From Brachybacterium timonense (GTDB lineage Bacteria; Actinomycetota; Actinomycetes; Actinomycetales; Dermabacteraceae), in assembly GCF_900258505.1 (NCBI RefSeq), contig NZ_LT984895.1, forward strand, positions 2,970,609 through 3,034,608: DNA of 64,000 nt, written 5' to 3'. Below are positions 20,727-62,649 of this stretch, piece by piece. Below the pieces are notes generated by a model. That model saw only the letters and a program-made list of their open reading frames with translations, did not search any database and was not told the origin of the DNA. The position numbers and the translations under genes are program-made. Every line of letters begins with the position of its first letter. Within the stretch, counting starts at the first letter, position 1.

Positions 20727-20932
20727 GGGCGGTGCCTCCTGCTCGGGTGCGGTGGGGTCGGTCCGTCGTTCAGCTGTTCCTCGCTGGCCCTGGGGTGACC
20801 GTACCTGGCCGCCCTGAGCGGCGTCGCTCTGAGCGGCGAAAGGCTCGCCGACCTGGCCGCACGTGGCGGGAAGTTCACGAAGAGTTCGCCTACGACCCGC
20901 CGACACGCCGAGCGATGAACGCATCGTCACTC

Positions 20933-20938
20933 TAAGAT
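20933..20938 (+). promoter_or_regulatory. candidate -10 element for the Asp-rich secreted protein
   Basis: TAAGAT is located about 35 bases before the GTG at 20974, leaving a short leader that carries a GAGGAGA ribosome site. No clear -35 is seen. Confidence 0.35.
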
Positions 20939-20973
20939 GGGCGCGCTGACCACTGCGCTATGAGGAGACTGCT

Positions 20974-22323: not shown

Positions 22324-22395
22324 TCGAGGCCGGGGCCGCGGCGGCACCCGTAGGATGTCGATGTCCTGACCTGCCGCCGCCCCCGGAGGATGCCT

Positions 22396-36851: not shown

Positions 36852-39800
36852 TCAACGCCGGCGAAGAAGCTCCTCATAGAGTCCGATGAGCCGAGGCACA
36901 TAAGCCTGCCAGTTGTCGCGTGCGGCGAACTGCCTCGCGTTGCGCCTCATCGTTCCGAGATCCGAGTCCGACAGCGCATTGATCGCTGCAGCGATCTCCG
37001 CGGGATCCAGGCTCCGCGGTACCGTGATGCCGATGCCGTTCTCAGTGATGCGCCGGGTCATCTCGGGCATATCCGTTGCGAGGATCGGGACGCCGGCAGC
37101 GGGGTACTCCCACAGCTTGTTGGGCGAGCAATACAGATGGTTGAGGCCGGTGTCCTCATAGGGGATCGCACCGAGATCGGCGCCGGCTGTCCAGCCCAGG
37201 AGCTCGTCGTGAGGGACGGCGGGGATCACGGCGACCGCGGGGCGATCACCCGGTCGCTCCGTGTCCCGGACGGCGTACTCATGGATGAGATCCCCGAGCT
37301 TGCCCCACCCCATGAACACGACCGTCCACTCCTCACCGAGGAGCATCGCGGCCTCCAGCAGCGCCGGGATCCCCCGATGAGGACTAAACCCGCCCTGGAA
37401 GAGGACGACGCGCTGGTCACTCCGGATACCCGCAGCATTGTGGAGCCGTCCGTCGTACACGGCGGGGCCATGGCCCTCGCTCACAGCATTGGGGATCAGC
37501 GTCGCAGGTGGCAGCGCCGGGTAGTTCTCGGTGTAGAAGCGACCGATGGATTCGTTGAGCGTGATGAACCCGTCGACCTCGAAGGAGCCGGCACGCACGA
37601 TCCGAGCGTTGACAGCGGCTCTCGCGGGGTCGAGGTTCGCGAGATCCTCATAGATCTCGTGCGCATCCCAGACGACCCCGCAGCCGAAGGCGGCACGATA
37701 TTTCTCGGCAGCCGTCAGAGCGACGTGATCATGGATATGAACCACATCCGGGATCATCCGTTCGCGAACGGCGCCGAAGAGGGCTTCCCCCTGGATCCTG
37801 AAGGACGCCCGGATCGAGTTCTCCTTCCCCGGCGCCACGCCTTCGCCCTTGACCCTCTCCGAGATCAGGTTGCGGTCCCATGACTCGAGATGGACGGGGA
37901 TCCCGCCGTCGAGGAGGAAATCCTCAGCTTCTCCCTGTGTCAGGCCGAACACGCGGACGTCGAATCCGGCTTCGCGGAGAGAGCCGGCGGTCTTGAGGAC
38001 CCTGGCGTCATGGCGCACACCGTTGTGCACGACCATCGCGACCCGGGGTGAGGCCTGGGAGCCTGCCCTCCCACCGGCGATCCGCAGGCGCCCGGCCGCA
38101 GACGGTCGCTTACGGGCATCCCTGCGTCCGCCGTCGCCGCCCATCAGGCGGTGGACCGTGGTCACGATGATCTCGCGCTCCGTCTCCCACGAGTTCTCAC
38201 GTCCATAGGAGGCCGCATCCGCTCGGAACCGGGAGTGCACGGCCCCGTCGAGGACAGTGCCAACGGCCTCCGCGAGGGATGCCGCGTCGAACGGGTCGTA
38301 CACGACTCCACACCCGCTCGCTCCGGTCACCTTCTGGATCTCCGGGGCGTCAGCGGCGACGAACGGGATCCCCGCGGCTGTGAATTCGAAGAGCTTGTTC
38401 GGCAGCGTCAGACGGTTGTTCTCAGAGACCGGCTGGTACGGGATCACGCCGAGATCCGCACCTGCTGTATATCGCGCCAGTTCGCCGGGGTCGACCTGAG
38501 GGACGAAGTGCACCCTGGCGTCCACGCCCTCGTCCACGGCAAGACGACGAAGGTCCTGCTCGAGCCGACCCTTGCCGATCATCACGAGGTGAACATTCGG
38601 CTCGAGCGACGCCATCGCCTTCACGCAGACGTCGAGGCCCCGGCCCTCAGCCAGTCCTCCCTGGTACAGCAGGATCTTCGAGTCCGCGGGAAGACCCAGC
38701 ATCCCGCGCAGATCACACGGGGCATCTAGAACCGCCTGCGGAACGCGCGGTGCGCAGTTGCGCACGACGCTCCCCATCACCCCGTAGCGCCTCCGGTACT
38801 CGTCCCGGATCGACTCGTTCACGACGATGACGGCATCTGCACGCCTCATGTAGTGCTTCTCGACAGGAGCGAGCAGTTTGCGCTCGAGCGCGCCAATCGT
38901 CGTGCTCTCCAGGTAGAGCTCGTGGCAGTCATGCAGATGCGGCACACCGAGCCGCGCGGCCGCGATGCTCGCGCCGACGAGCCCGGGAAGGTCGGAGCTG
39001 ATGATCAGGTCAGGCTGGTGGGACTGGATCCGATCTGGGCTTAATCGCCAGAACTCGACGAACCTGTTCACCAGATGAGCGTTCTTCAGCGTGTCCCGGA
39101 TCCAGAGATCCCTCTGCTGCCGGGCAGCGTTCCATCGCTTCGTGACGGTCTTGTCGGCCTGGGTCCACTTCTCCCTGACGTCATGCCGCAGAGCCTCGAA
39201 TCCAGGGGTCATCCACGCACGCGCGGCCAGCCCGGTCCCGGGAACGCCGCTCTGGATCCATGCGGGCAGCGGATCGGCATTCCGGGCGGAATCCCCCGCC
39301 TCTTCGAGCCGCTCAAGAGCCCATCGCTCGCGACGCTGTCGGTTCTTGCGGGTCATCCGGCCCTGATACTTCACGGCGAGGGACTCGACGTCGATGAAGT
39401 CGGCGCTGAGATTCGGGTGCTCGAGGCCCTGGAAGAAGCCCGAGCGAGGCCTCATGTTCACGACGACGACCTCTGCTCCGAGATCGAGCATCGTCTGGAT
39501 GTTCCGTCGGATCCGGCCTGCAATCTGCGGTTTCATCGCGACGACCACGACCTTCTTCGGTGTCGGAGCCGCCGTGCCCTCCGCGTTGTCCCGCCGCGTC
39601 AGTGCGGTCGAGGCCCTCGGGGCGCGGTGGACCCGTCGGCGGAGCCCGAGCGTCCTGTAGACACGCTCGTAGGCACGCGCATTGCCCTCCCAGGTCCTGT
39701 TGCCACGGACCCATCGCGCCGCGCTTAGGCTCAGCTCGAGACACCTCGGTTCGTCGTCGACCAGACGACGGAGCTTCTCCGCGAGGTCGTCCACGTCATC

Positions 39801-41951
39801 GGCACGGAAGACGACAGCCGACTCGGAGTCATCAGCGATCTCACGCAGCGCGTCGACGTTCGACATGACGACGGCCCGTCCGGTCGAGAAGGCCTCGAAA
39901 GGCTTCAGCGGGGTCACGATGTCAGCCACCGTCGACTTCGCCCGCGGGACGACGAAGATGTCGATCAGTCCGAAGTACTTCGGCACCTCGTAGTACGGGA
40001 CCGCACCGGTGAACACGACTCGGTCGAGGATCCCGCGTGCCCGCGCGCGGGCCTTCAGAACGTCCAGGATGGGGCCGTCTCCGACCAGGACGAGACGGAT
40101 CGGGAGGTCAGTACGGCCCTCCAGGCGTCCGACCGCATCGATGAGCGTCTCGATCCCCTCGTACGCGACCATCGATGAGACGTACCCGATCGTCACCGCG
40201 CGGCGAGGGATCCCCAGCGACGCTGCAAGGCTCTGGTCCCGCCGCTGCACGGGGAAGTCCTGCGGGTCCACCGCATTGGGGACGACCGCGATTTGATCGC
40301 TGCGAAGATCGTTCGCAGAGCTGCTCAGGATGTGCTGCCGCATGGTCTCGGCAAGGGTGATGTTTCTGTCGACCAGTCCTCGTGCCGTCGCCTCTGCGCT
40401 GCTACGCAGCGCGTAGGCATCCGGGAGACCGTACGCCGTAAACGCTGTGGCCTGGTCGGGACCCCACGCTCCTGCGGCGGACTGGCGCGAGAGCCAGGAC
40501 TCCTCCCAGAACCCCCGGGATTCATAGATCGTCGGGATGCCGTGCGCGAGACCGACAGCATGCACCAGCAGCGCGTTGTGGAAGTCGGAATGCGCATGGA
40601 GGACGCTCGGTCGGAGCCTTTGGACGAGCCGGGACAGCTCCCTGGCGTTGCGCTCGATCCAGCGGGCCGTACGGACCTTCCCGCGTTCCGGCCCGGGGAG
40701 GACGTAATAGTCGACGCCGTCGACGGCGTGCGAGAGCAGCCGGTCCGCCGGCGCACCGCTCGCACCGGAGTGCCCGACGACCGCGACGCGCAGACCGGTT
40801 GCCTTCTGCGCCGCTGCGATCCGATGGGTGCGCAACGTGTACCCGGACTGCGTCGTCGGGAGCGTCTTCCCCACGACATGGAGGACGGGCCCGTCCGGTG
40901 TGTGCGCCGGGGTGCGCTCCAAAGAAGGCAGCGCCGCCACGGGCCTGCGGAAGAACTCGATCTCATCGCCGAGACGCCGAGCAGTCTTCACGTCGTTCGG
41001 GAGGCCGGTCACAGTGGCGATGTGCTGGACGACCTTGTGGGCGAGCACCCAATAGCCGGCATCTCTGAAAGTCCTGTACAGCACCCGGTTCGTGCCGAGC
41101 CTCGTCGTGCCGAGGAGGTCGAAGTCCCGCACCAGCGGTGCGGTCTCCAGGTAGTGCCTGCCCTCGATCAGGCGGCGGAAGAGCTCCGCGGCACCCTCCT
41201 CGTCGAGGACGGCTCGGGGATCGGCTCCGTGCCGGAGCGCCGCTCGGGCGCTCAGGGCCCAGGCCTCATCCCGCTCCTGAGTCTGTGTGCTCAGTGAGGC
41301 CTCAGCCTCGACGAGCTGCCTCGAGAGCTCTGCGAGGCGGGCATCGTATTCGTCGACGCGTGCCGTGAGCGCCTCCATACCAGAGAGCAGTCCCGCGACA
41401 TCCTCGTCGTGCGACGCAGCCTGCTTCACCGACGCATTCTCGACCGCCACCAGATCCGCACGAAGCGCCTCGAGTCCGCTCTCGAGACGCGGGGCCGTCT
41501 CTTCGATGGTCGCCTGCAGCGCCCCGACGGCCTCAGTCAGTTCATGTCGCTGCGCTTCCGCGGCGTCCATCGCTCCTGATGTGGCCACGAGGCCGGCATT
41601 CTGCTGCTCCGCAGTTGCGGCTAGCCGCGCGAGCCCCGTCTGGAGCTGCCGGATGTCATCGGCCATGCCGCGATCGCCTGCCCGATCACGCTCGATGTTG
41701 GCGAGCCGCGTCGCGTTGCGATCACGGGAACGCGCCGCCTTCCCGATCGCGATCCAGGCTCCGATCACGATCGCGCCGATCATCACGATCCACCCGATGT
41801 CGGCGGCGAGGGCCAGAGCTGGAGACTCGTACACGATCCCCACGATGTCGACACAGAGGAGTGCGATCAGCGCCAGTCCCGCGAGAAGCGCACCGGCCTG
41901 AAGGAGACTGCGCAACGACCTGCGAGCGCCCCGTCCACGCTGACCACTCAT
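36852..41951 (-). CDS. giant protein with three glycosyltransferase domains
   Basis: A 1699-residue protein. Two membrane helices (about 19-41 and 50-72) are followed by a predicted coiled coil (90-240). Three complete GT-B transferase domains come next: domain 1 at 355-770 (PTTQSGYTLRTHRIA, VVPNAVDPQDF, PLKPFEAFSTGRAVVMSN); domain 2 at 800-1270 (LLYQGGLAEGRG, LPNKLFEFTAAGIPFVAAD); domain 3 at 1303-1699 (LFQGGFSPHRG, PNKLWEYPAAGVPILATD). Domains 2 and 3 resemble each other more than domain 1. AGGAGG lies just before the ATG at 41951. Such a protein could build a multi-sugar repeat processively at the inner membrane face. Frame and motifs are intact throughout, so it is not an assembly fusion on the face of the sequence. 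Confidence 0.88.
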   Translation of the reverse strand: MSGQRGRGARRSLRSLLQAGALLAGLALIALLCVDIVGIVYESPALALAADIGWIVMIGAIVIGAWIAIGKAARSRDRNATRLANIERDRAGDRGMADDIRQLQTGLARLAATAEQQNAGLVATSGAMDAAEAQRHELTEAVGALQATIEETAPRLESGLEALRADLVAVENASVKQAASHDEDVAGLLSGMEALTARVDEYDARLAELSRQLVEAEASLSTQTQERDEAWALSARAALRHGADPRAVLDEEGAAELFRRLIEGRHYLETAPLVRDFDLLGTTRLGTNRVLYRTFRDAGYWVLAHKVVQHIATVTGLPNDVKTARRLGDEIEFFRRPVAALPSLERTPAHTPDGPVLHVVGKTLPTTQSGYTLRTHRIAAAQKATGLRVAVVGHSGASGAPADRLLSHAVDGVDYYVLPGPERGKVRTARWIERNARELSRLVQRLRPSVLHAHSDFHNALLVHAVGLAHGIPTIYESRGFWEESWLSRQSAAGAWGPDQATAFTAYGLPDAYALRSSAEATARGLVDRNITLAETMRQHILSSSANDLRSDQIAVVPNAVDPQDFPVQRRDQSLAASLGIPRRAVTIGYVSSMVAYEGIETLIDAVGRLEGRTDLPIRLVLVGDGPILDVLKARARARGILDRVVFTGAVPYYEVPKYFGLIDIFVVPRAKSTVADIVTPLKPFEAFSTGRAVVMSNVDALREIADDSESAVVFRADDVDDLAEKLRRLVDDEPRCLELSLSAARWVRGNRTWEGNARAYERVYRTLGLRRRVHRAPRASTALTRRDNAEGTAAPTPKKVVVVAMKPQIAGRIRRNIQTMLDLGAEVVVVNMRPRSGFFQGLEHPNLSADFIDVESLAVKYQGRMTRKNRQRRERWALERLEEAGDSARNADPLPAWIQSGVPGTGLAARAWMTPGFEALRHDVREKWTQADKTVTKRWNAARQQRDLWIRDTLKNAHLVNRFVEFWRLSPDRIQSHQPDLIISSDLPGLVGASIAAARLGVPHLHDCHELYLESTTIGALERKLLAPVEKHYMRRADAVIVVNESIRDEYRRRYGVMGSVVRNCAPRVPQAVLDAPCDLRGMLGLPADSKILLYQGGLAEGRGLDVCVKAMASLEPNVHLVMIGKGRLEQDLRRLAVDEGVDARVHFVPQVDPGELARYTAGADLGVIPYQPVSENNRLTLPNKLFEFTAAGIPFVAADAPEIQKVTGASGCGVVYDPFDAASLAEAVGTVLDGAVHSRFRADAASYGRENSWETEREIIVTTVHRLMGGDGGRRDARKRPSAAGRLRIAGGRAGSQASPRVAMVVHNGVRHDARVLKTAGSLREAGFDVRVFGLTQGEAEDFLLDGGIPVHLESWDRNLISERVKGEGVAPGKENSIRASFRIQGEALFGAVRERMIPDVVHIHDHVALTAAEKYRAAFGCGVVWDAHEIYEDLANLDPARAAVNARIVRAGSFEVDGFITLNESIGRFYTENYPALPPATLIPNAVSEGHGPAVYDGRLHNAAGIRSDQRVVLFQGGFSPHRGIPALLEAAMLLGEEWTVVFMGWGKLGDLIHEYAVRDTERPGDRPAVAVIPAVPHDELLGWTAGADLGAIPYEDTGLNHLYCSPNKLWEYPAAGVPILATDMPEMTRRITENGIGITVPRSLDPAEIAAAINALSDSDLGTMRRNARQFAARDNWQAYVPRLIGLYEELLRRR

Positions 41952-42267
41952 GTGGCGACCTCCTAACCTTCGCTCATCTGGGGAGGAGCTATCCTTCGGG
42001 CCACAGCCCGGTGAATCTGCGGCTTCGCGTCCGCACAGGCAGCAGAACACGGACTCTCATGATCCCATCTGGGTCGCGCAGATGCATGCGTTCGCCCTCT
42101 GCTGTGACGGACGTCCGGGCACCCTCGTCCCGGTCTCCAACGGATTCCGGCAACGATTCGATCACCGGCGCCGTACCATGGTGGCGCGCGTCCGGTGTTT
42201 TCGGGCGCGATGGAGCAGCCGTGGACCCAACCGGACGCTCCTGCTGCATCGCGATGTGAGGACCACT
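41952..42267. other. divergent promoter region between giant GT and uronate operon
   Basis: About 316 bases with no supported gene. The AGGAGG for the leftward gene lies at its left edge. TACCAT at 42174-42179 is a weak -10 candidate for the rightward operon. Frames running through here are extensions of the flanking genes without ribosome sites. Confidence 0.5.
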
Positions 42268-50872: not shown

Positions 50873-52297
50873 TCAGCTCGCCGCGAGGTACGCCCCCAGC
50901 GCATCACGCTGATCCCGCGGCAGGAAGCCGGTCGCCTCGATCTTCGCGAGGTCAAGCACGGAGCGGCGCGGCCGCGGAGCCACGGTGCCGTCGCCTTCCG
51001 TCGTCCCCTGCGCGGCGTAGTAGTCGGCGGTCGTGACGGGCATGACGCGCTCAGGTGCATGGCCCGTCATCGTGAACACCTCAGCAGCGATCTGCGCCCA
51101 ACTCATCGGCTCCCCCGCGCAGGTGAGGTTGTACGTCCCAGGCTCGGGCCGCGTGCGGATCAGGTGGTCGATACCGGCGGCGAGGTCCTGGGTGAAGGTG
51201 AGGCGGCCGATCTGGTCATCCACCACGGAGGGGTCCACGCCCTTCTCCGCGAGCGCCGCCATGGTGCGCACAAAGTTCTTCCCCTCGCCCACCACCCAGC
51301 TGGTCCGGACCACGTAATGCTGCGCCAGGGTGCCCACCAGCAGATCGCCAGCGGCCTTCGCCTGCCCGTAGACGCCCAGCGGCGCGAGCGGCTCGTCCTC
51401 GGTGTGCTGCTCGGCCTCACCGTCGAACACGTAGTCGCTCGAGACGTGCACGAGCAGCGCCCGCTGCGCGCGTGCCGCCTCGACCAGGCGCCCCACGCCG
51501 GTGGCGTTCGCTGCCCAGCAGGCCCGTCGGCCCTCCGGGGTCTCGGCGAGATCCACCGCCGTGTACGCGGCGGCATTGACGATCACCCCGTATGGGGAGA
51601 AATCGAAGGCGGCCACAGACTCGGCGGAGGCGATGTCCAGGACGTCACGGTCCACACAGTCAACGTCGGCCCTCCCCTCCCACAGCGCACCGAGCGCGCG
51701 CCCCAGCTGCCCGCGGGCACCCACCACAAGGGTCCGACGGGGAGGAACCGGGGTGACGTCCGCCAGACGCGGATGGGCGAGGTCCTTCGCGGAGCGCTCG
51801 GCCCGCTCGAGCGGGATCGGCCACGGGATCGCGACGGTCTCATCGGCCAGGTTCACAAAGGTGTACCGGGCCTGCTGAGCCTCGGACCAGTGGTCGTTGA
51901 CCAGATAGGTATAGGTGGCGGGCGCCTCGAGGGTCTGGAAGGCATTACCCACCCCGCGCGGCACGTACACCGCGACATCGGGCGTGATCTCGTGCCAGTA
52001 GGCGGCTCCGAACGTCGGCCCCTCACGCAGATCCACCCAGGCGCCGAACACGCGCCCGGTCGCCACCGAAATGTATTTATCCCACGGCTCGGCGTGGATC
52101 CCGCGAGTGACGCCCACTGCCTGGTTGAAGGAGACGTTGTTCTGCACCGGGCCCAGGTCCGGCAGGCCCGCGGCGACCATCTTCTGCCGCTGCCAGTTCT
52201 CCTTAAACCAGCCGCGCGCATCCCCGTGCACTGGCAGGTCGATCACCAGCAGGCCGGGGATCGGGGTCTCATGGATCGCGAGGGGCTTCGTGCTCAC
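50873..52297 (-). CDS. rmlCD: fused dTDP-4-dehydrorhamnose 3,5-epimerase / reductase (RmlC-RmlD)
   Basis: A 474-residue fusion catalysing the last two steps of dTDP-L-rhamnose synthesis. Residues 1-180 are a cupin-fold RmlC-like part (GWFKENWQ, NNVSFNQ, GVTRGIHAEPWDKY). From about 190 an RmlD-type short-chain reductase follows (LVVGARGQLGRALG, AAYTAVDLAE, SSDYVFDG, YGQAKAAGD near 308). The fused form occurs in many actinobacteria. The GTG at 52297 with AGGAG upstream is preferred over an open extension of 18 codons. It lies 81 bases downstream of rmlB, likely co-transcribed. Confidence 0.92.
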   Translation of the reverse strand: MSTKPLAIHETPIPGLLVIDLPVHGDARGWFKENWQRQKMVAAGLPDLGPVQNNVSFNQAVGVTRGIHAEPWDKYISVATGRVFGAWVDLREGPTFGAAYWHEITPDVAVYVPRGVGNAFQTLEAPATYTYLVNDHWSEAQQARYTFVNLADETVAIPWPIPLERAERSAKDLAHPRLADVTPVPPRRTLVVGARGQLGRALGALWEGRADVDCVDRDVLDIASAESVAAFDFSPYGVIVNAAAYTAVDLAETPEGRRACWAANATGVGRLVEAARAQRALLVHVSSDYVFDGEAEQHTEDEPLAPLGVYGQAKAAGDLLVGTLAQHYVVRTSWVVGEGKNFVRTMAALAEKGVDPSVVDDQIGRLTFTQDLAAGIDHLIRTRPEPGTYNLTCAGEPMSWAQIAAEVFTMTGHAPERVMPVTTADYYAAQGTTEGDGTVAPRPRRSVLDLAKIEATGFLPRDQRDALGAYLAAS

Positions 52298-52378
52298 AGG
52301 ACATGCTCCTTCACGGGCAGGACGCCCGGACGACGAGTTGGGCAGGGACACGACGGACGCGGGCCCGTCGCGCTGGGC

Positions 52379-53473
<1,095 letters not shown>

Positions 53474-53506
53474 TCAACAGTTCACATCGCTGCAACGCTC
53501 TGCGTG

Positions 53507-53582
53507 GCTGGATCCGGCTCTCTCCCCCGCGACTGGATCCGTCCCACTCCAGCGTGACTGGATCCGGCGCTCTCCCCCGGCC
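53507..53582. repeat. three 25-bp direct repeats upstream of helicase gene
   Basis: The core tggatccg begins at 53509, 53534 and 53559, an exact 25-base period. Units 1 and 3 share ctggatccggctctctccccc-type sequence; unit 2 is diverged after the core. The array lies in the short gap between rmlB and the helicase gene, so it could be an operator array or an insertion scar. Confidence 0.7.
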
Positions 53583-53617: not shown

Positions 53618-56569
53618 ATGCAGGTGGGGCAGGGCTCGGCAGCGGAACGCGCTTGGGAGTATCACCGTCGAGCAGCCGTCGTGATGGGAGCCGCGCCCGA
53701 CGGCCCCTCCGTCGCCCGCAGCACTGCGGCCGTCTCCTCCGGTTCCCGCACCGCTGGCAGGCCACCTGACCTCAGATCGCTCACAGAGCTGCAGAAGGAC
53801 CAGGCGAACTACTCCCTCGCCTGGTATTTCGCGGACGATAATGCTCGAGTCAGCGCACTGTCGAATCCACTCGTCGCGGCCTACCTCTCCGAGAGCGAGC
53901 TCTGCTCTCCTGTACCGGCATCGTCACCGTCGAACGGTGCCGCTGAACTCGACTGGCTCGTCAACGACCGCTTGAACGACAGTCAGCGCAGAGCGGTCCA
54001 CGAGGCACTCACCCGCCCGGTCACCATCATTCAGGGCCCACCCGGCACCGGTAAGACGCAGGTGATCCTCGAGCTGATCGCACAGATTGAACGAGCCGGG
54101 AGCACCGCAGCCGTTGTCGCGCAGAACGGTGCTGCTATCGCCAACGTCATCCAGCGCGTCGGTTCCGGCGACGGGCATCTGCGCACCCTCCGCTCGCGCC
54201 TCGCCGAGCTCGGCAATTCGGCGAAGCGACGGCGATTCTCCCAACGCCACCCCCAGTGGACGTTCGCGGCGGGACCGGGCGGCCGCGAGACCGCGATCAG
54301 CGCCGCTCAGTTTCTTGCCGAGTTCCCCATCGTGACAAGCACGATCCATTCGCTGCCGAAACTCGTCACCGACGGCACCCGGCACCTCTACGACTACGTG
54401 ATCGTCGATGAGGCCTCCCAGGTGGACCCGGTCGTCGGGCTCGTGGCGATGGCGTCCGCTCGCCGTCTCATCCTGCTGGGCGACAAGCATCAGCTCCCAC
54501 CCGTGCTCGATCGGACGACGGTCTCACGGGTCAAGCGCCTCACCGACGACCTTACCCACCTGCACGACGCGTCCTGGGTGCTCCGCGAGGAGACGAGCTT
54601 CCTCGAGGCGGTCGAGGCGAGCTCGCGCAGGCTCGGGGCGGGTGCGGTTCTGCTGGACACCCATTACCGCTGCCATCCCGGGATCATCGACTTCTGCAAC
54701 CGGCACGTCTACGGCGAACGGCTGAGCGTCAAGACGGATACGAGTGCGTTCTTCACGAAGGACATTCCGGTGCCCATCCGTGTGCGCTGGTTCCCGGGTG
54801 CGTTCGGCGAGCGCGTCGTCACCGAAGCGGCGGCGCGCCGTGCACGTGCACGCGGCGAGAACCCGACCAGCACGCGGCGCAACCGCAAGCAGGTCGAGGT
54901 GTTCATGCGGGAGGAATGGCCCGCCCTGCACAAGCGGATGGAAGCCGCGAGCGCCGACGCCCCACTCTCGGCATGCATCCTGTCCCCCTACCGTGGCCAG
55001 CTGGAGGAGCTCAGGCAGGCGCTCAGGGAAGCCCTCTCGGCACCGAACCCGATCGACACCGCATCGGACGACCACCCGGGCACGCACGCCGCTGCCGCCC
55101 CCGCTCGGAGCCCGCTGACGGCCGATGCGATCTCGATCGATCCCGTCGAGCCGTCGGCGCAGCGGGAGGAGGACGACGACGCTCCGGTCGATGCTCCCCT
55201 GGCTCTGACGATCCACACGTCCCAAGGGCGGGAGTTCGACATCGTCTACGTCCTGCCCGTGGACGATGGGGCGTGGGAGTTCCCCTGGTCTCAGCACCGA
55301 CGGCTGATCAACGTCGCCGCATCCCGCGCGAAGCAGGAGCTCGTGGTGGTGGTCGGTTCCGACCAGATGTCCGAACCCCTCCAGCAGCGGCTGCTCGGAT
55401 ACTCGATCCCGACACGCCACGCCCCACCTGACCGGGGCCCGTCGAACACGCGCGAGAACGGCGCCGATCAGATGTTCGTGCAGCGTCTGATCGATGACGT
55501 GGCCGAGCGGACCGGCGTCGACACGGCGCAGAGCCACCCGTCGGGCTACGGCCTTCAGCGCAGCGGACTGGTCTCGGTTTTCGACCGGGTCTCGGCGATG
55601 CGTGAGCGGATCCGGCGTGCCGGTCTGCCGGTGGTGGCCGAGAGCGGCGACGGTTTCGCCGCACCCGAGGAGATCGTCGCCCAAGCACTGTTCGATGCCG
55701 GTCGCCGGGTCGGTTCGCGACGCCGCGAGGGCGCTCGCGACACGGGCCGTGCCCCGTGCGAACGGCCGGGCGTGATCGTGATCCGCGAGCTTCCCCTCAG
55801 CTCCTGCCATGGGCTGCAGCACGATGGCGTCGACAGCCGGTCCTTCGACATCGTCATCGTGCACGAGGCGACCCGAAGGCTGCTGGTGGCCATCGAGATC
55901 GACGGTCCCTACCACCGCCACCACGCAGATCCCGCGAGGCTCGAAGCACAGCGCACCGCCGATTTCGTGAAAGATCGGATCGCCCGGGACTCCGGTGCCG
56001 CAGTGATCCACGGCCGGACCATGGTGGCAACGCCCGAGGAGCCTGCCTTCGTCCTGCTGCGGCTGCCCAGCGACGGCAGCGTCTGGGGTGAGTTCGATAA
56101 GCAGCAGACTGCGAGCACCGTGGAGATTCCCTCCGGCGGCCATCCCCTGGCGGGCATGAGCATCGAAGCACTCGTGCAGGCACAGCTCTCCCGCAGCATC
56201 GCCCACCCGATCACAGTCGGCGACTGCACACTGTTCAGCCCCTATCTGGCGCGTATCGGCGCGAGCGGCGTCACCAGCAAACAGCTGCACGACCGCCTCG
56301 CGGACCAGGGGTTTCTGACGTACGGGCCGGCGCTCGACGAGACTCCGTCCACCGCAGCGCCGACGGCGAACGGCGGGAGGCGAGGCCCGCGTCGGCCCAC
56401 GCCACAGGGACGTGACCAGGGCTTGAGGTCATGCATGGCGTTCAATGAAAGCGGCGAGGCCTATTGGGGGGTCCGTGTCCTCACGCCGGGCAGTTCACGG
56501 CTCCGCGACATCGCGCATGATCTCGCCGCTGACCGATCCGTCCCGCACTCGACAGGAGACCGCAGATGA
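53618..56569 (+). CDS. UPF1-like SF1 helicase with C-terminal nuclease-like domain
   Basis: A 983-residue superfamily 1 helicase. Walker A IIQGPPGTGKTQ is near 137-148, Walker B IVDEASQVDP near 262-271, motif III LLGDKHQLPPVL after it, motif V TIHTSQGREFDIVYV near 530, and motif VI NVAASRAKQELVVVV near 565. A region about 735-830 with SFDIVIVHEATRRLLVAIEIDG looks like a DUF2726/PD-(D/E)XK nuclease core (D-x(n)-E-x-D). An unrecognised C-terminal part of about 150 residues follows. It overlaps the next gene by ATGA (56566-56569). Helicase-nuclease fusions of this type are frequent in anti-phage systems, which is how I read it here; the substrate is unknown. Confidence 0.85.
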   Translation: MQVGQGSAAERAWEYHRRAAVVMGAAPDGPSVARSTAAVSSGSRTAGRPPDLRSLTELQKDQANYSLAWYFADDNARVSALSNPLVAAYLSESELCSPVPASSPSNGAAELDWLVNDRLNDSQRRAVHEALTRPVTIIQGPPGTGKTQVILELIAQIERAGSTAAVVAQNGAAIANVIQRVGSGDGHLRTLRSRLAELGNSAKRRRFSQRHPQWTFAAGPGGRETAISAAQFLAEFPIVTSTIHSLPKLVTDGTRHLYDYVIVDEASQVDPVVGLVAMASARRLILLGDKHQLPPVLDRTTVSRVKRLTDDLTHLHDASWVLREETSFLEAVEASSRRLGAGAVLLDTHYRCHPGIIDFCNRHVYGERLSVKTDTSAFFTKDIPVPIRVRWFPGAFGERVVTEAAARRARARGENPTSTRRNRKQVEVFMREEWPALHKRMEAASADAPLSACILSPYRGQLEELRQALREALSAPNPIDTASDDHPGTHAAAAPARSPLTADAISIDPVEPSAQREEDDDAPVDAPLALTIHTSQGREFDIVYVLPVDDGAWEFPWSQHRRLINVAASRAKQELVVVVGSDQMSEPLQQRLLGYSIPTRHAPPDRGPSNTRENGADQMFVQRLIDDVAERTGVDTAQSHPSGYGLQRSGLVSVFDRVSAMRERIRRAGLPVVAESGDGFAAPEEIVAQALFDAGRRVGSRRREGARDTGRAPCERPGVIVIRELPLSSCHGLQHDGVDSRSFDIVIVHEATRRLLVAIEIDGPYHRHHADPARLEAQRTADFVKDRIARDSGAAVIHGRTMVATPEEPAFVLLRLPSDGSVWGEFDKQQTASTVEIPSGGHPLAGMSIEALVQAQLSRSIAHPITVGDCTLFSPYLARIGASGVTSKQLHDRLADQGFLTYGPALDETPSTAAPTANGGRRGPRRPTPQGRDQGLRSCMAFNESGEAYWGVRVLTPGSSRLRDIAHDLAADRSVPHSTGDRR

Positions 56570-58578
56570 CCGGAGACGTTCAGACGAAGCCGAGCAGGGC
56601 CTCGGTGCGGGAGCAGTTCGCGACCGATGCCGGGTTCCAGGAGTGGTTCGAGTGGAAGCTCACGCGCCTTCTGCACGTGCCGAGCCACCATTGGAGTGGT
56701 GTGCACTGGCCGGAGCTCGACCGTGACCGTGATCTTGGCGCAGCCATCCGCGAGTTCCCGGTGTCGCGGTCCACGAGAACGCCCGACCGACTGCTCGTGC
56801 TCGCCGTGCCGACCGCCCTGTCCGATGCCTCGCGCACCGCTGGGGACCCTCTCGATGCCGCCCCCGCCCGGCTCTGGGCGACGGACGATGATGCAGTGTG
56901 GATCCCACGTCACATCCATCGAGCAGCCGGCACCGACGATCACCTGGTCTGCGCCGATGGGAAGGACCTCGCACATCCGTACGAGGGCTCGGCACCTGCT
57001 CGCGACGGTGCGGGAACCCCCTGGGTCCCCCTGATCATCGGGTTGAAGCGGTTCTACGGCTTCACCGACTACGAGTTCGCGGTCACCTACGCCCTCGCCG
57101 CCGAGCTGCGATCAATGCGGGACAACGTCGAGCTCTTCGAGCACATCGAGCGCACCGATCTGGACGAGCGCGTGCTGATGAGAGCGCTGGCGCTGATGAT
57201 CTCCGGCTGGACGGCTGATGGTCAGGCCGACGACTCCCGCATTCGACTCGAGCATGCGTCACGCACGACGCTCGAGACTCTGATGCTCGTGGTCAGGCTC
57301 CTGAAATCCGCTCGTGAAATCACCGTCGAGGGCGATGCCGTCACCCTGTCCATCACGCTCGACGCCGACCCTGAAGCGGAGAGTCTGGGACTGCACCTCA
57401 GCGAGCTCCTGAGCGGTGGCAGCGCCACCTGGCTGTTCCAGACTGCGACCACGACGAACTCCAGCCTCCACCTCACCACATCGGGCCACGTGATCGGCGT
57501 CTTGGAGCACGCGCCCTTCCTCCCTGCTCAGGAGGGAAACCGGTTCATCGCGTCTCTGCCGCGCACACCTGTTCCACAACGGTCGGATCGAGCGACGGTC
57601 AAGAACCTGTGCGTACGCCCGCCCGTCGACTATGGGTGGGCTGTGCGACGGCGCCACATCACCCCCGCGTCATCCCACCGCTCAGCCGGACCCCTGTCTG
57701 GTTCCGGGCGCGCGTCGGATGCCACGCATCCGCACCCGGGCGAGGACCGGTCACAGCCAGAGTGTGCAGACGCGTCGCCATCACCTGCCCAGATCGCTGC
57801 GGCGTTCACCCTGCACCCGGGCAAGGAGATCTCGGTGACGAGCACCGCCACCTGTGTCGCTGCCCATCCCGACGCAACGGGTGATGAAGGCGCCGAGGCC
57901 CTGACCGGTGAAGTCTTCGCGGTGCAGCGCCATGGCGCCTGGTCCCCCTGGTCCAACAGCGCGGTGCGGCGAGGATGGAACGGGATCAACCAGAGGAACG
58001 GTCTCAAACTGGCCATCATGGACTCGCTCGTGGATGCGTCGTTCGGCCCGCATGGCGCTCTCCTGGCTGCCGTCCACCAGAACGATCCCGAGCAGATCCG
58101 CCGGCTCGCTCGCGGGCTCGGCGTCACCGTCGCGGAGGAGTCCATCGACGACTCCGCGCACGCGACCGAAGCCGGGGCGCGTCCCGTCCCGTCGACCTCC
58201 CGCATCTGGTCGCGCCGCCTGCTGGACCTGCAGGATCCCGCACAACCCGCCTCCCAGGTCAGTCTCGACATTCGGCGACATCTCTATGCGGGCGACGCTT
58301 CTACCGAACCGCTCCTCTTCCAGGAGCTGAGTCGACAGCAGCGTCTCGAGCTCCTGAGCCTTGACGGCGCCACGATCGTGGACATCGACACCGGCGAGAT
58401 CCTCGCCGTCGGCGCGATCGTGAACCTTGACGAGAAACAGGAGGCCGGTGGAGGACGGGCCAGCGCCGCCCGCAGCCTCGCCAAGCACGGCGTCGCCTTC
58501 AAGGTGTCCCAGGACGGTGCGATCCATGGCTGGCACCACTGGCGCGGTGTGATACAGGAATGCCTGTTCCTGGGCTGA
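56566..58578 (+). CDS. protein with C-terminal DAC-like domain
   Basis: A 670-residue protein. The first ~450 residues are unrecognised (start FQEWFEWKLTRLLHVPSHHW, then a helical stretch FYGFTDYEFAVTYALAAEL). Residues about 480-665 resemble the DisA/CdaA diadenylate cyclase fold: LVDASFGPHGALLAAV, then LDGATIVDIDTGEILAVGAI near 598-617, then GGGRASAARSLAKHGVAFKV and SQDG. The DGA motif is kept, but the GTRHR motif of active enzymes is GGGRAS, so it is more likely a nucleotide sensor than a synthase. It is coupled to the helicase by ATGA. Its domain is paralogous to that in the convergent neighbour, eight bases beyond its stop. Confidence 0.8.
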   Translation: MTGDVQTKPSRASVREQFATDAGFQEWFEWKLTRLLHVPSHHWSGVHWPELDRDRDLGAAIREFPVSRSTRTPDRLLVLAVPTALSDASRTAGDPLDAAPARLWATDDDAVWIPRHIHRAAGTDDHLVCADGKDLAHPYEGSAPARDGAGTPWVPLIIGLKRFYGFTDYEFAVTYALAAELRSMRDNVELFEHIERTDLDERVLMRALALMISGWTADGQADDSRIRLEHASRTTLETLMLVVRLLKSAREITVEGDAVTLSITLDADPEAESLGLHLSELLSGGSATWLFQTATTTNSSLHLTTSGHVIGVLEHAPFLPAQEGNRFIASLPRTPVPQRSDRATVKNLCVRPPVDYGWAVRRRHITPASSHRSAGPLSGSGRASDATHPHPGEDRSQPECADASPSPAQIAAAFTLHPGKEISVTSTATCVAAHPDATGDEGAEALTGEVFAVQRHGAWSPWSNSAVRRGWNGINQRNGLKLAIMDSLVDASFGPHGALLAAVHQNDPEQIRRLARGLGVTVAEESIDDSAHATEAGARPVPSTSRIWSRRLLDLQDPAQPASQVSLDIRRHLYAGDASTEPLLFQELSRQQRLELLSLDGATIVDIDTGEILAVGAIVNLDEKQEAGGGRASAARSLAKHGVAFKVSQDGAIHGWHHWRGVIQECLFLG

Positions 58579-58586
58579 CGCCCAGC

Positions 58587-60125
58587 TCAACCGAACCCGT
58601 TCAGTACGCGAGCGTCGCTGTCGGCGTCCGGTCGGCTCGGCCCGTACAGGGTCACCTCACCGTCCTGCGACACCTTGAACGCGGCCCCGAACTCGGCGAG
58701 GGCGAGGGCGGCGCTCTTACGGCCCCCGCTGGCGCCACCCCGCACGCGGACGATCGCGCCCGACGCGATGATCCTGCCGCGCCGGTCAATGATGGTGGCG
58801 CCGTCCATGCTGAGCAGTTCGAGCCGCTGTGCACGGGAGAGCTCGGCGAACCGGTACCCCTCGTACTCGTCGCTCAGATCGGTCCGCCCCTGACAGAGCA
58901 GCTGGCATCGAAGGTCGAGCTGATCATCGACACCGTCGGCGGAATACCAGAGCAGGCCGGGATCGATGATCGTCTCGCCGTCGACGCCCCCGCCGATGCT
59001 GTCGACCTCGCACTCGCCGTAGAACTCGACGAAGCCCTGGCTCGACAAGACGGCGAGCACGGCGCCGTGCCCGCTGAAGCTCGCGTCCAGCACACTCTCC
59101 AGGATCGCCGCGCGAACCGTTGAGTTCACCTCGTACGGGCCGGCATCGGGAATGTCCACCTCGAACCTCACCGTGCCGAACTGCTGCCAGCGTATGTTCT
59201 CCGCGATCACACCCCACTCACCGCGACGATGCACACACCGAACCGCCCCATCCTTGAGCACCGCAATGTCGCCGTTACCCGTCACAGCGAAACCCAACGT
59301 CGAACCGTCATACGTCACCGCAGCCAGGTCCTCCAGCTCCACCGGGAAGGCGTGGCTGAGGCGGTTGGTGTCGCCGACCGCATGATCACGAAGATCCCAC
59401 ATCGCCTCGACCAACCCGTCGGCGCTCACCACCGTGGCTGTGCCTCCGCTCGCGCCCAGCAGCGGGGTCCAGGGGTACCGGCCACGCCGGACGTAGTCCG
59501 CGAACGACACCGCTCTGGGAGCCGAGAACGCGAACGCGTCAGCGGCTTCCGCAGCCTTACCCTCCTCATGCGGGACTGTCGTCACGATGAAGCGAGGCGC
59601 GTACCGCTGCCCCTCGTACGTCGAGGCGGCGGCATCCTTCAGATGCTGGAGCAGGGCGACGATCGTTTCGCGAAGCTTTTCCGCCAGATCCTCATCGTCC
59701 ATCGCTGTCGCGGTGGCGAGGAACCGCGCGATCGCCTGCTCGACGAGCGTCGCGCGCAGAACCTGCCAATGCTCTGGCGCGCCGCGGGAGGCCGACACCA
59801 GCTCCGCCGCACTGTGCAGCGCGGTCGCGTAGGACCTCGCCAGCTCCTTCTCATCGGGGGTGAAAGGCTGCGACCGCGACAGAACGAGGAAGTCCGTGTC
59901 CCGTTGGCGCTCACCTGTTCGCGGGAGCCGGAGCTGGATCTCGGTGGCGCTGAAACCGACAAGGCGCTTCTTGTCCCTTTTGAAGATGTCAATGCCGTGC
60001 CGTCGACGGCTCGGATGAATGCCGAGCAGGCGGCCCAGGTCCTCCTCCGCCTGGGCGTAGAACGTCCCGTGGCCCGGCGTTTCATCCTGGGCGTCAGGCA
60101 TCGGGTTCGGATCGATCATGGTCAC
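58587..60125 (-). CDS. second protein with C-terminal DAC-like domain
   Basis: A 512-residue protein whose C-terminal ~175 residues parallel the DAC-like domain of the 56566 gene: VLDASFSGHGAVLAVL near 342, LSRAQRLELLSMDGATIID near 427-445, ASGAIV, GGRKSAALALAEFGAAFKVS near 468-487. Again DGA is kept and RHR is replaced (RKS). The N-terminal ~330 residues differ from the partner and are not recognised; a PRFIVTTVPHEEG-like segment and beta-rich stretches are visible. The GTG at 60125 overlaps the upstream stop (GTGA) and has GAGGAA six bases before it. An ATG two codons later is the alternative. A much longer open frame upstream is the antisense shadow of the next gene. Confidence 0.8.
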   Translation of the reverse strand: MTMIDPNPMPDAQDETPGHGTFYAQAEEDLGRLLGIHPSRRRHGIDIFKRDKKRLVGFSATEIQLRLPRTGERQRDTDFLVLSRSQPFTPDEKELARSYATALHSAAELVSASRGAPEHWQVLRATLVEQAIARFLATATAMDDEDLAEKLRETIVALLQHLKDAAASTYEGQRYAPRFIVTTVPHEEGKAAEAADAFAFSAPRAVSFADYVRRGRYPWTPLLGASGGTATVVSADGLVEAMWDLRDHAVGDTNRLSHAFPVELEDLAAVTYDGSTLGFAVTGNGDIAVLKDGAVRCVHRRGEWGVIAENIRWQQFGTVRFEVDIPDAGPYEVNSTVRAAILESVLDASFSGHGAVLAVLSSQGFVEFYGECEVDSIGGGVDGETIIDPGLLWYSADGVDDQLDLRCQLLCQGRTDLSDEYEGYRFAELSRAQRLELLSMDGATIIDRRGRIIASGAIVRVRGGASGGRKSAALALAEFGAAFKVSQDGEVTLYGPSRPDADSDARVLNGFG

Positions 60126-61660
60126 GGAGCGTTCCTCGGACGAGTGCGAATTCGGTGCCGAAGCCGCTGGGCGGCACGGGACAGGCGGCCGGAGACGCGA
60201 CCGGCGGGCTGCGAATGTGTGGTGTGGGCGCCGAGTGGTGTCAGGCCCACGGTCTCCGGGAAGACGTCGAACAGTGCGAGACCTGGCCGGCCGTCGCGCG
60301 GGGTGGTGGGCGCATCGTAGGTCCCCCACAAGCGCAGTCGCGCGGCCATGTCCGCGGGGAAGAAGCGCGTCGGCGCCGACGTGCTCTGCGGGGGCGGGGC
60401 CCCCGACGGCGCAGGGCGCAGCGACGAGGCCGGGCCTCGCGTCAATGGCTTCCGCGCTGGCCAGTGCGGCGTGTGTGCGAGAGCTGCGCCGAGCATGAAC
60501 GCGATCACCCGCGGCACGCGCGCCGTGAGGTGGATCTGGGCGTTCGGGTACCGAGCCAAGGTCCAGGCGATCACGTCGGCGAAGAAGATCGCGACGGTCT
60601 CCGGGTCGGCGACGAGCGCGTCTCCGGTTGCCTGCTCGCGACGCGACGTCACAGATGCCCTGCCGGTGGACGTCAGCTGCGAGATCTGCACCGAGGCGAA
60701 GCGCCGCACCGGAGCGCCGGTGGGCGTCGAACCGACCCGCGTGTCCGGACCGGTGCCATCGAGCAGAGCCCCAGCCTGGATGAACGGGCCGCTCTCGCCC
60801 CACAGCGGCACCTCAGCGAACGGCATCCAGCACTCGATGCCACCCTTCTTCACCGCCCCCAGGGAGAGACGCACACGTCGAACGGATGGATCCGGGCGGA
60901 ACGTCTCGCGCCAGCGAGGAACGTCCTTCCCGTCGACGGTGACGCGCAGCTGCGCCTGCTCCTCGGCCTGCACGTCGGGATCATGACGCGAGACGATGCG
61001 CCGGTAGGCTTCGGCGTCGAACTCAAGGAACCGTTCACGCTGCTCCCGACTGAACCCACCCCGGCCGGGGGTCGCATTGTCGGGCACCTCGAAGAGTCGA
61101 AAGTCCGACGGCAGGAACGTGAGCGCGCCCATCCCGATGATGGCCGGGATCGGACCCTCCGGCGTGATCCGCACCAGATCCGCATGGTGGGCCTCCAGCA
61201 CGCGATCCAGGCCGCTGACGAGGTCGCCGAGCTGCCCTGTCACGTCGGCGCGGGCCACGGCGTCTCCCGTCCCGTTCCACGGGACGGGCTGCACCGAGAA
61301 GGAGCGGTGCAGCCCGGCGAAGGAGGTCATCACCGTGCGGTCCCATGTCGAGGACCGATCGTCTGCCCGGCCCAGCTGGGTCAGGTGCATATCGACCACA
61401 ACGCCGCTGTCGATCCGTCGCTTATAGACCAAGGCGAGCAGCGCCGCGGCGCCGAAGAGCGCGGCGAACCCACCGAACAGCCACGCAGAGCCCCGATCGC
61501 CCTCCGGCGGCACGAGAACATACTCGCCGAACAGGCCCACCGCGGCGGTGAACAGCGAAAGGGCGGCCGCAATGAAAACGGCCGCGGCCGCATGCCGACG
61601 GCCGGTGTTCTGCCGACCCTCCAGCATCTCGAGCGTCGAGCGCGGCGTGGTCGACGGCAT
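60122..61660 (-). CDS. two-TM protein with SAVED/CARF-like sensor region
   Basis: A 512-residue protein with two N-terminal membrane helices (about 24-49 and 57-80) and a large soluble part. Two similar segments, GPIPAIIGMGALTFLP (169-184) and ARVPRVIAFMLGAALAHTP (380-398), each follow a beta strand (ADLVRIT; AQIHLTA). This is the twofold P-x(3)-A-x(2)-x-L/M-G pattern of SAVED domains, which bind cyclic nucleotides in CBASS effectors. 2TM-SAVED proteins are known membrane-disrupting effectors. Assignment is by pattern only. The ATG follows a strong GAGGAGGAA. It overlaps the downstream DAC-like gene by GTGA, so the pair is an operon. Confidence 0.75.
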   Translation of the reverse strand: MPSTTPRSTLEMLEGRQNTGRRHAAAAVFIAAALSLFTAAVGLFGEYVLVPPEGDRGSAWLFGGFAALFGAAALLALVYKRRIDSGVVVDMHLTQLGRADDRSSTWDRTVMTSFAGLHRSFSVQPVPWNGTGDAVARADVTGQLGDLVSGLDRVLEAHHADLVRITPEGPIPAIIGMGALTFLPSDFRLFEVPDNATPGRGGFSREQRERFLEFDAEAYRRIVSRHDPDVQAEEQAQLRVTVDGKDVPRWRETFRPDPSVRRVRLSLGAVKKGGIECWMPFAEVPLWGESGPFIQAGALLDGTGPDTRVGSTPTGAPVRRFASVQISQLTSTGRASVTSRREQATGDALVADPETVAIFFADVIAWTLARYPNAQIHLTARVPRVIAFMLGAALAHTPHWPARKPLTRGPASSLRPAPSGAPPPQSTSAPTRFFPADMAARLRLWGTYDAPTTPRDGRPGLALFDVFPETVGLTPLGAHTTHSQPAGRVSGRLSRAAQRLRHRIRTRPRNAP

Positions 61661-61713: not shown

Positions 61714-62595
61714 TCAGCGCTGGCCGGCGCGTTCCCGCTCCAGCACATCGATCAGATACCGTCCGTACCCGGACTTCACCAGCGGCTCAGCCCGCTCACG
61801 CAGCTCATCATCAGAGAGGTAGCCCATCCGCCAGGCGACCTCCTCCGGGGCGCCGATCGAGAGACCCTGCCGCTTCTGCACAGTACGGATGAACTCTCCG
61901 GCTGCAGCGAGATCATCGAACGTGCCGGTATCCAGCCAGGCTGTGCCTCGGGTGAGTACCTCGACATGCAGGGTGCCTTCGTCAAGGTAGCTGCGGTTCA
62001 GGTCCGTGATCTCCAACTCGCCGCGGGCCGACGGCCTCAACGCTCGCGCCCGCTCCACCACGGTCTGGTCGTAGAAGTACAAGCCCGGCACAGCAAGATT
62101 CGAGCGCGGCTGGTCAGGTTTCTCCTCCAGTGACACCGCCCGCCCTGATGCGTCCACCTCCACCACGCCGTAGGCGCTGGGGTTCTTCACCCAGTAACCA
62201 AACACCGCCGCACCGTCGACCTCGGCGTAACGGCGCAACTGCGTACCCATGCCGTAGCCGTAGAACAGGTTGTCGCCCAGGACAAGCGCTGCCCGCTCCC
62301 CCGCCAAGAACTCCTCACCGAGCAGGAACGCCTGCGCCAGACCATCGGGAGACGGCTGCACAACGTACGAGAGGCTCACGCCGAAGCGGCTGCCGTCTCC
62401 CAGTACCCGCTGGAACGCCTCCTGGTCATGCGGCGTGGTGATGACCAGGATGTCCCGGATGCCCGCGAGCATCAGCGTGGACAGCGGATAGTAGATCATC
62501 GGCTTGTCGTACACCGGCATCAGCTGCTTCGAGACACCGATCGTGAGCGGATGCAGGCGCGTACCGGTGCCACCGGCGAGGATGATGCCCTTCAT
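61714..62595 (-). CDS. rmlA: glucose-1-phosphate thymidylyltransferase
   Basis: A 293-residue sugar nucleotidyltransferase that makes dTDP-glucose, the first step of the rhamnose pathway. N-terminal [15 protein letters not shown] (4-18), [20 protein letters not shown] near 26-45, GDNLFYG and [10 protein letters not shown] are all present; the length is normal for RmlA. The ATG at 62595 gives the usual MKGIILAGG start. It is separated from rmlB by the four-gene cassette, and its stop lies 53 bases beyond the start of the 2TM gene, which it precedes in the leftward direction. Confidence 0.95.
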
Positions 62596-62649
62596 GGACG
62601 CCAGTATGTCAAGCACGCGTAGTGTCGTGCGGCATGCTCACGTCGCCGA

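Follow-up and report, generated by a model that had tools for sequence, protein, structure and literature searches.

A cassette of four intact genes, here called A to D, fills positions 53618-61660 of a 64,000-nucleotide window of the Brachybacterium timonense genome (the window being the whole stretch of DNA that was analysed), and encodes a predicted helicase-nuclease, two paralogous proteins with a diadenylate cyclase (DAC)-like domain and a predicted membrane protein with a SAVED-type domain. We consider the chances about even that this is an anti-phage cassette acquired by horizontal transfer, one branch of which works through a nucleotide second messenger, and in which B and C would hold the place of the signal module. 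The homologies behind this reading have good support and the signalling model has moderate support. The genes are arranged A>B> <C<D, as two convergent pairs: an ATGA overlap joins A and B, a GTGA overlap joins the start of C to the stop of D, and the stops of B and C lie 8 bases apart. This layout had been given in a preliminary description made from the DNA letters, and its coordinates and frames were confirmed. None of the four reading frames contains an internal stop, and their third-position GC is 0.80-0.84, compared with 0.76-0.88 for six other window genes. The cassette comprises the following features:

53618-56569, + strand: A, predicted superfamily 1 (SF1) helicase with a PD-(D/E)xK-like nuclease region, 983 aa
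56566-58578, + strand: B, DAC-like protein, 670 aa, matched to C by BLASTP
57997-58530, + strand: DAC-like domain of B, from alignment and hhalign; DGA at residues 600-602 (58363-58371)
58587-60125, - strand: C, DAC-like protein, 512 aa from a GTG at 60125 or 510 aa from an ATG at 60119
58641-59123, - strand: DAC-like domain of C, from alignment and hhalign; DGA at residues 441-443 (58805-58797)
60122-61660, - strand: D, two predicted N-terminal transmembrane (TM) segments and a SAVED-type domain, 512 aa, from PADLOC and hydropathy
61427-61585, - strand: the two predicted TM segments of D (residues ~26-44 and ~60-78), from a Kyte-Doolittle plot

Domain content of the four proteins

B and C have a common C-terminal domain (BLASTP E 8e-20, 37% over 179 aa) and, judged by sequence, are paralogues, with B carrying additional N-terminal and internal sequence. 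The N-terminal half of B matched an N-domain profile of C and its relatives L015 and L019 weakly (domain E 1.5e-5 in a 12-sequence search). Direct scans of B and C against Pfam, PADLOC and NCBIfam returned nothing useful, their N-terminal region has no useful Pfam family match and B has no useful match in the PDB. Taken alone, these null library scans suggest an orphan family, and both relatives and profile comparison were needed for the DAC assignment. When compared by hhalign with a profile of 16 canonical DACs, B and C alone gave an E value of 8.7e-5 (60%), six close members 4.9e-5 (67.7%) and an 11-row alignment 1.3e-6 (90.6%), while RmlB and SAVED control profiles gave at most 0.7%. The canonical set was 16 of 30 fetched DAC loci, chosen for their GTRH motif and thus uninformative on how frequently GTRH is conserved, and the relative L021, whose frame stops before the motif at the GTRH position, was excluded from the hhalign profiles and the first tree. 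Among the relatives, L011 and L012 reach the cut-off of the canonical DAC family PF02457, L013 (3e-4), L019 (0.005) and L020 (0.0008) match it below the cut-off, and L010, L014, L015 and L021 gave no match. A PDB search with a 12-row profile placed DisA, a diadenylate cyclase, DisA and DisA in the top four of six positions (E 0.04-0.21). The homology of the B/C domain to DACs is therefore well supported at the sequence level, in line with the preliminary description, which had proposed a shared DAC-like C-terminal domain from the letters.

D was matched by the PADLOC model SAVED6--SAVED_TM (56 bits, E 9.9e-16, residues 26-411), and its hydrophobic segments peak at a Kyte-Doolittle (KD19) value of 2.28 at residue 26 and 2.12 at residue 60. 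The same model gives the D homologue of L019 a score of 286 bits, and an hhalign profile of these two proteins gave 69% with the single TM-SAVED protein of L028. Searches of the PDB with D alone and with a D profile returned no useful match. D is a predicted two-TM protein with a SAVED-type receptor-effector architecture, and the two-TM SAVED-like pattern described earlier stands. A SAVED6_TM search of the class found matches in 3 of 394 genomes (L026, L027 and L028); this and the other genome-search counts given here are lower bounds, as the search at 1e-8 missed the host genome itself though hmmscan of D gives 1e-15. The TM-SAVED protein of L027 is adjacent to a Cas10 gene and that of L026 is near a cas2 gene, and no known system was recognised alongside that of L028. 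With SAVED6--SAVED_TM, the L026 and L027 proteins score 156 and 141 bits. As a separate observation, these proteins (L026:9136-10173 and L027:9582-10928) score higher with the PADLOC 'CorA' model (401 and 409 bits), such that the SAVED_TM and CorA labels seem to overlap.

A is, as far as its sequence tells, a UPF1/IGHMBP2/DNA2-like SF1 helicase with a DUF2726/MTES_1575-like predicted nuclease region. It matches AAA_11 (6e-28) and AAA_12 (5e-15) in Pfam and DNA2 and SMUBP-2 in the PDB (E ~1e-10), and all motifs sought were found: GPPGTGKT at 140, DEASQ at 264, GD..QL at 288, QGREFD at 536 and NVAASRA at 565, which we take to be those of an SF1 helicase. Its tail carries an AIEIDGPYH motif, presumably of PD-(D/E)xK type, within a nuclease region (residues ~735-800) that matches DUF2726 (0.02) and MTES_1575 (0.07), both below the Pfam cut-off. 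Of the helicase with a nuclease-like domain announced in the preliminary description, the helicase was recovered by family matches and motifs, and the nuclease-like domain by the tail motif and the matches below cut-off. The nearest PADLOC model is MkoA (E 5e-46, 155 bits, A residues 96-584).

Relatives, gene neighbourhoods and insertion site

Besides the host, a profile of the B/C C-terminal domain picked out 5 genomes with relatives among 396 searched in a phylum sample, a five-row alignment found one besides the host among 396 in the order, and a six-row alignment found none besides the host among 394 in the class. C was found in none of the 57 other genus and order genomes searched. DAC searches were positive in 1 of 24 genomes of the family of G494 (G494 itself) and in 3 of 199 genomes of the class of G240 (G240, G303 and G099). 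Further relatives came from an Acidobacteria metagenome-assembled genome (L015, the single locus from a two-pattern scan of genome contigs), from plasmids of Agrobacterium vitis, Paracoccus albus and Vescimonas, and from one IMG/VR contig (L029). Plasmid searches with C (at 1e-3), D (at 0.01), A (at 1e-20) and the L019 D homologue were negative, no match to the L015 or L029 DAC was found in phages, and viral contigs gave no match to C or A.

The closest relative of C is in L019, from G494, which belongs to the same order and another family (31.8% over 490 aa, E 3e-52). Here the C homologue and a D homologue (23%, E 7e-7) form a divergent pair with 82 bp between them, and the D homologue is convergent with DruE-type (1356 bits) and DruF-type (503 bits) genes, preceded by genes for 686-aa and 144-aa proteins. 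Beside this Druantia-type locus, L019:1-8997 encodes a large protein that reads as helicase-like, a UvrD-like helicase and a KAP NTPase with QatA/PifA matches. In L015, the C homologue (30.0% over 424 aa, E 2e-32) closes a drmMI-drmA-drmB-drmC (DISARM) series. More distantly, the DAC-like gene of L020 is convergent with a type II CBASS comprising JAB, E1-E2, cyclase and phospholipase genes, and this may be a DS-2-like two-cyclase arrangement; the gene (L020:8563-9843, NZ_AP023285.1, A. vitis plasmid pRvVAT039d) is annotated as hypothetical. These DISARM, Druantia-type and CBASS neighbourhoods of C relatives support the conflict-system reading proposed in the preliminary description. L021 lies on a plasmid rich in IS elements, with a frame that stops early near an IS3 element, L025 is on a plasmid by annotation, and L029 reads as prophage-like. 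The L029 gene (L029:6592-7944, IMGVR_UViG_2928543200_000002), a low-GC DAC-like cargo gene amid what read as tail-type genes, is a possible phage-borne member of the family.

In one tree, B and C cluster with L015 and L019 (92/96, just short of the starred level). The cluster represents three loci, each of which has a large defence-type helicase, and the helicase differs in kind from locus to locus. In the full-length tree, C pairs with L019 (86/82) and B is a long branch.

The cassette separates rmlA from rmlB in a rhamnose/glycosyltransferase cluster, with a glycosyltransferase (named by reading) beyond rmlA on the D side. The flanking features, with gene names taken from reading the sequence, are:

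50873-52351: rmlCD, the host dTDP-rhamnose cluster continuing from rmlB
52379-53473, - strand: rmlB, one flank
53502-53579, + strand: three tandem copies of a 28-nt repeat, core GACTGGATCCG, at 25-nt spacing, upstream of A
61714-62616, - strand: rmlA, other flank

A search of the genus with rmlB returned 28 loci from 25 genomes other than the host, so that 26 of 36 genomes gave a match once the host is counted. rmlA was inside the 1.5-kb flank at 22 of these loci, and at 21 of the 22 the aligned ends put it no more than 450 bp away. Since proximity of rmlA and rmlB is the usual state in the genus, the cassette is best read as an insertion at the rmlA|rmlB junction. Three of the six remaining loci (L097-L099) carry rmlA 1.4-4 kb off with unrelated cargo between, in which no DAC or TM-SAVED match was found, two (L100 and L101) have no rmlA within 12 kb of rmlB, and the sixth (L044) is short, probably because of a contig end, with rmlA absent from its flank. 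These six loci give little support to the junction as a defence hot spot, a suggestion that we rejected. In the genome G029 of another species, a 266-aa gene (L102:205-1005), which we take from a motif to be NYN-like, lies within the rmlA-rmlB gap, indicating that the junction accepts other cargo. The tandem repeats upstream of A, of which the middle copy is only 71% identical, may be operators or a trace of insertion; with up to one mismatch allowed, their core is present at 13 sites in the window, where 3.46 would be expected.

Elsewhere in the window, a 1732-aa protein (36852-42050, - strand) has three glycosyltransferase group-1 stretches in a single chain, and a 997-aa frame (20932-23925, - strand) has no Pfam match at 1e-5.

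Candidate signal sources and known systems

The host genome (99.98% complete) gave no match to PF02457, to the SMODS model PF18144 or to the Cas10 palm2 model PF22335, in searches that can miss true members, as the SAVED6_TM search did; the same models matched 11, 5 and 7 of 14 control genomes, respectively. The SMODS model may miss some CD-NTase groups, and for Cas10 the result is that of PF22335, with no mCpol-specific model run. A canonical DAC is present in 69 of 98 sampled genomes of the phylum; one genome (G087) has three PF02457 matches, of which one is weak (E 2.8e-8). Scans of A-D against Pfam, PADLOC and NCBIfam found no CD-NTase, so the lack of a CD-NTase or SMODS gene remarked on earlier holds for the cassette and, by the SMODS model, for the genome. 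This leaves the DAC-family proteins as the only candidate nucleotide source found for D.

Membership of CBASS was rejected, given the lack of a CD-NTase in A-D and of a PF18144 match in the genome. Mokosh was rejected as well. Mokosh systems comprise MkoA with MkoB, or MkoC; the helicase core of A resembles MkoA, but it aligns to positions 594-1078 of the 1112-residue model only, sharing the helicase core alone, and Pfam and PADLOC scans found no MkoB or PLD match in A-D. D belongs to the same PADLOC family (SAVED6--SAVED_TM) as the CRISPR-locus proteins of L026 and L027; these are distant from D, however, and Cas10 adjoins that of L027 whereas none was detected in the genome of the window.

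The closest published parallels are DS-2 and Panoptes. DS-2 consists of a phospholipase, a cGAS and a DAC (PMC13092281; DefensePredictor, 2026); its DAC is required for anti-phage defence, mutation of two predicted catalytic DAC residues abolishes defence, and 15 of 30 DAC homologues are co-located with CBASS. Like DS-2, the cassette has a DAC-family protein in a defence locus, and L020, with CBASS and a DAC, has a similar layout. Unlike DS-2, the window has no cGAS or phospholipase match and has a TM-SAVED protein, two DAC-like proteins and a helicase-nuclease. Membership of DS-2 was rejected on the lack of a phospholipase or cGAS match in A-D and of SMODS in the genome. The NCBIfam model DS2_3_antiphage gave no match to B or C (E up to 10) and weak matches to L020 (0.02) and L011 (0.05); the L020 DAC gene found no blastn match in E. 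coli genomes, precluding a DNA-level comparison with DS-2.

In Panoptes, the product of mCpol is a c-di-AMP that restrains the 2TM effector of mCpol (PMC12657230), and a smaller set of mCpol genes is in operons with 2TM-SAVED genes (PMC12657218). The cassette shares with it a candidate nucleotide-making protein and a predicted 2TM effector, and differs in having a DAC-like domain in place of mCpol, an additional helicase-nuclease and two paralogues. Type III effectors are enumerated in passages of PMC11229360, and passages of PMC11090510 have nothing on DACs. A literature search of titles and abstract openings, with most subscription papers outside its reach, found no report of a DAC with TM-SAVED, or of a DAC with Druantia or DISARM. 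Since both a CBASS-type system with a DAC and the pairing of 2TM-SAVED with mCpol have been published, the cassette is a variant and no new category. The suggestion that the system was undescribed has to be softened, given the published requirement for a DAC in the CBASS-like DS-2.

Proposed mechanism and competing explanations

In the model that we favour, A would engage or degrade invading nucleic acid, and B and C would occupy the signal-maker position taken by CD-NTases in CBASS, Cas10 in type III CRISPR or mCpol in Panoptes. Relatives of D stand beside Cas10 or, in print, mCpol, and B and C are the only candidate source found here. They would either synthesise a cyclic adenylate-type nucleotide or hold one and release it, and the SAVED domain of D would bind this nucleotide to gate the two-TM membrane effector; D could be either activated by the signal or, as in Panoptes, restrained by a tonic one. 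We infer an anti-phage function and a horizontal origin, and the model further presumes synthesis by B and C, the type of ligand, a coupling of A to B and C, and D as the killer. A broader version, in which a DAC-fold enzyme with an altered active site makes the nucleotide read by TM-SAVED and this DAC(-SAVED) unit combines with helicase defences that are unrelated to one another (Mokosh-like, Druantia and DISARM), is offered tentatively, with the balance somewhat against it.

Several results weigh against the signalling model. In the PDB search with the DAC-like profile, the next two hits were unrelated proteins (E 0.27 and 0.52), making the DAC E values marginal. D falls below the SAVED cut-offs of Pfam (0.19) and NCBIfam (0.16), and the profile of D and its L019 homologue gave a weak TM match (4.9%) to two CRISPR-linked TM-SAVED proteins. 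No D relative was found in the L015 DISARM stretch examined, no defence gene was recognised near seven more distant relatives (L010-L014, L025 and L029), and ten neighbour genes from L010-L014 had no PADLOC match at 0.001. Co-occurrence of the genes in other genomes, a check named in the preliminary description, was half borne out: the C-D pair recurs in one instance (L019), and an all-four-gene locus was returned by no search, A and B not having been searched alone in whole genomes.

The active site also counts against canonical catalysis. The DGA and RHR motifs have roles in DAC catalysis, and four canonical PDB-aligned chains have GTRH at the RHR position. B and C resemble canonical DACs such as DisA and CdaA in having the DAC domain with DGA, and with a G-x-R element where GTRHR would stand, and differ in the loss of RHR and in an N-terminal region with no useful Pfam match. 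In the family alignment (12 rows, leaving out L025 and L035), the Arg of GxR is kept in 10 of the 11 rows that reach this motif, and neither the His nor the second Arg of RHR is present in any of the 11; L025 has DGA and, at the RHR position, GGRTAAA. With RHR lost, canonical catalysis by B and C is doubtful, and they may have altered chemistry or bind nucleotides without synthesis. The missing His and second Arg would also suit an explanation that we regard as less likely than the favoured model, in which B and C are non-catalytic DAC-fold receptors that bind a nucleotide from elsewhere (from phage, or through a change in the host pool) and gate A, with D as a second nucleotide-gated arm. An N-terminal region joined to a DAC-like domain would suit a sensor, and L020 adjoins its own CD-NTase, making a synthase role unnecessary there. 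However, all 12 rows keep DG and 10 of them DGA, and the searches of the host genome detected no canonical DAC, SMODS or Cas10 that would supply the ligand.

The two separate convergent gene pairs, and the presence of C-D without A-B in L019, are what would be expected of two independent adjacent modules, one being a helicase system made up of A and B and the other made up of C and D. We find this improbable, given that the paralogues B and C fall in one group with L015 and L019 and that the D relative of L019 is again convergent with helicase-operon genes. Least probable of all is a non-immune role in the cell envelope or in nucleotide homeostasis, tied to the surrounding polysaccharide cluster. 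Such a role would fit the position of the cassette inside the rhamnose/glycosyltransferase region and the several DAC-like relatives that have no recognised defence neighbours, but the lack of a C match in the genus and order genomes searched, together with the usual closeness of rmlA and rmlB, gives the cassette the look of dispensable cargo, and relatives are found in DISARM, Druantia-type and CBASS loci.

If B and C do make the signal, the fold of c-di-AMP synthases would have been drawn into cyclic-nucleotide immunity with no CD-NTase involved, and SAVED receptors would serve one further kind of synthase. If they only bind nucleotides, DAC folds would have been turned into receptors. Either outcome would help to explain the occurrence of DAC-like proteins at loci of the DISARM, Druantia and CBASS types, and the question is tractable for testing, since the cassette is compact and no canonical c-di-AMP synthase was detected in its host.

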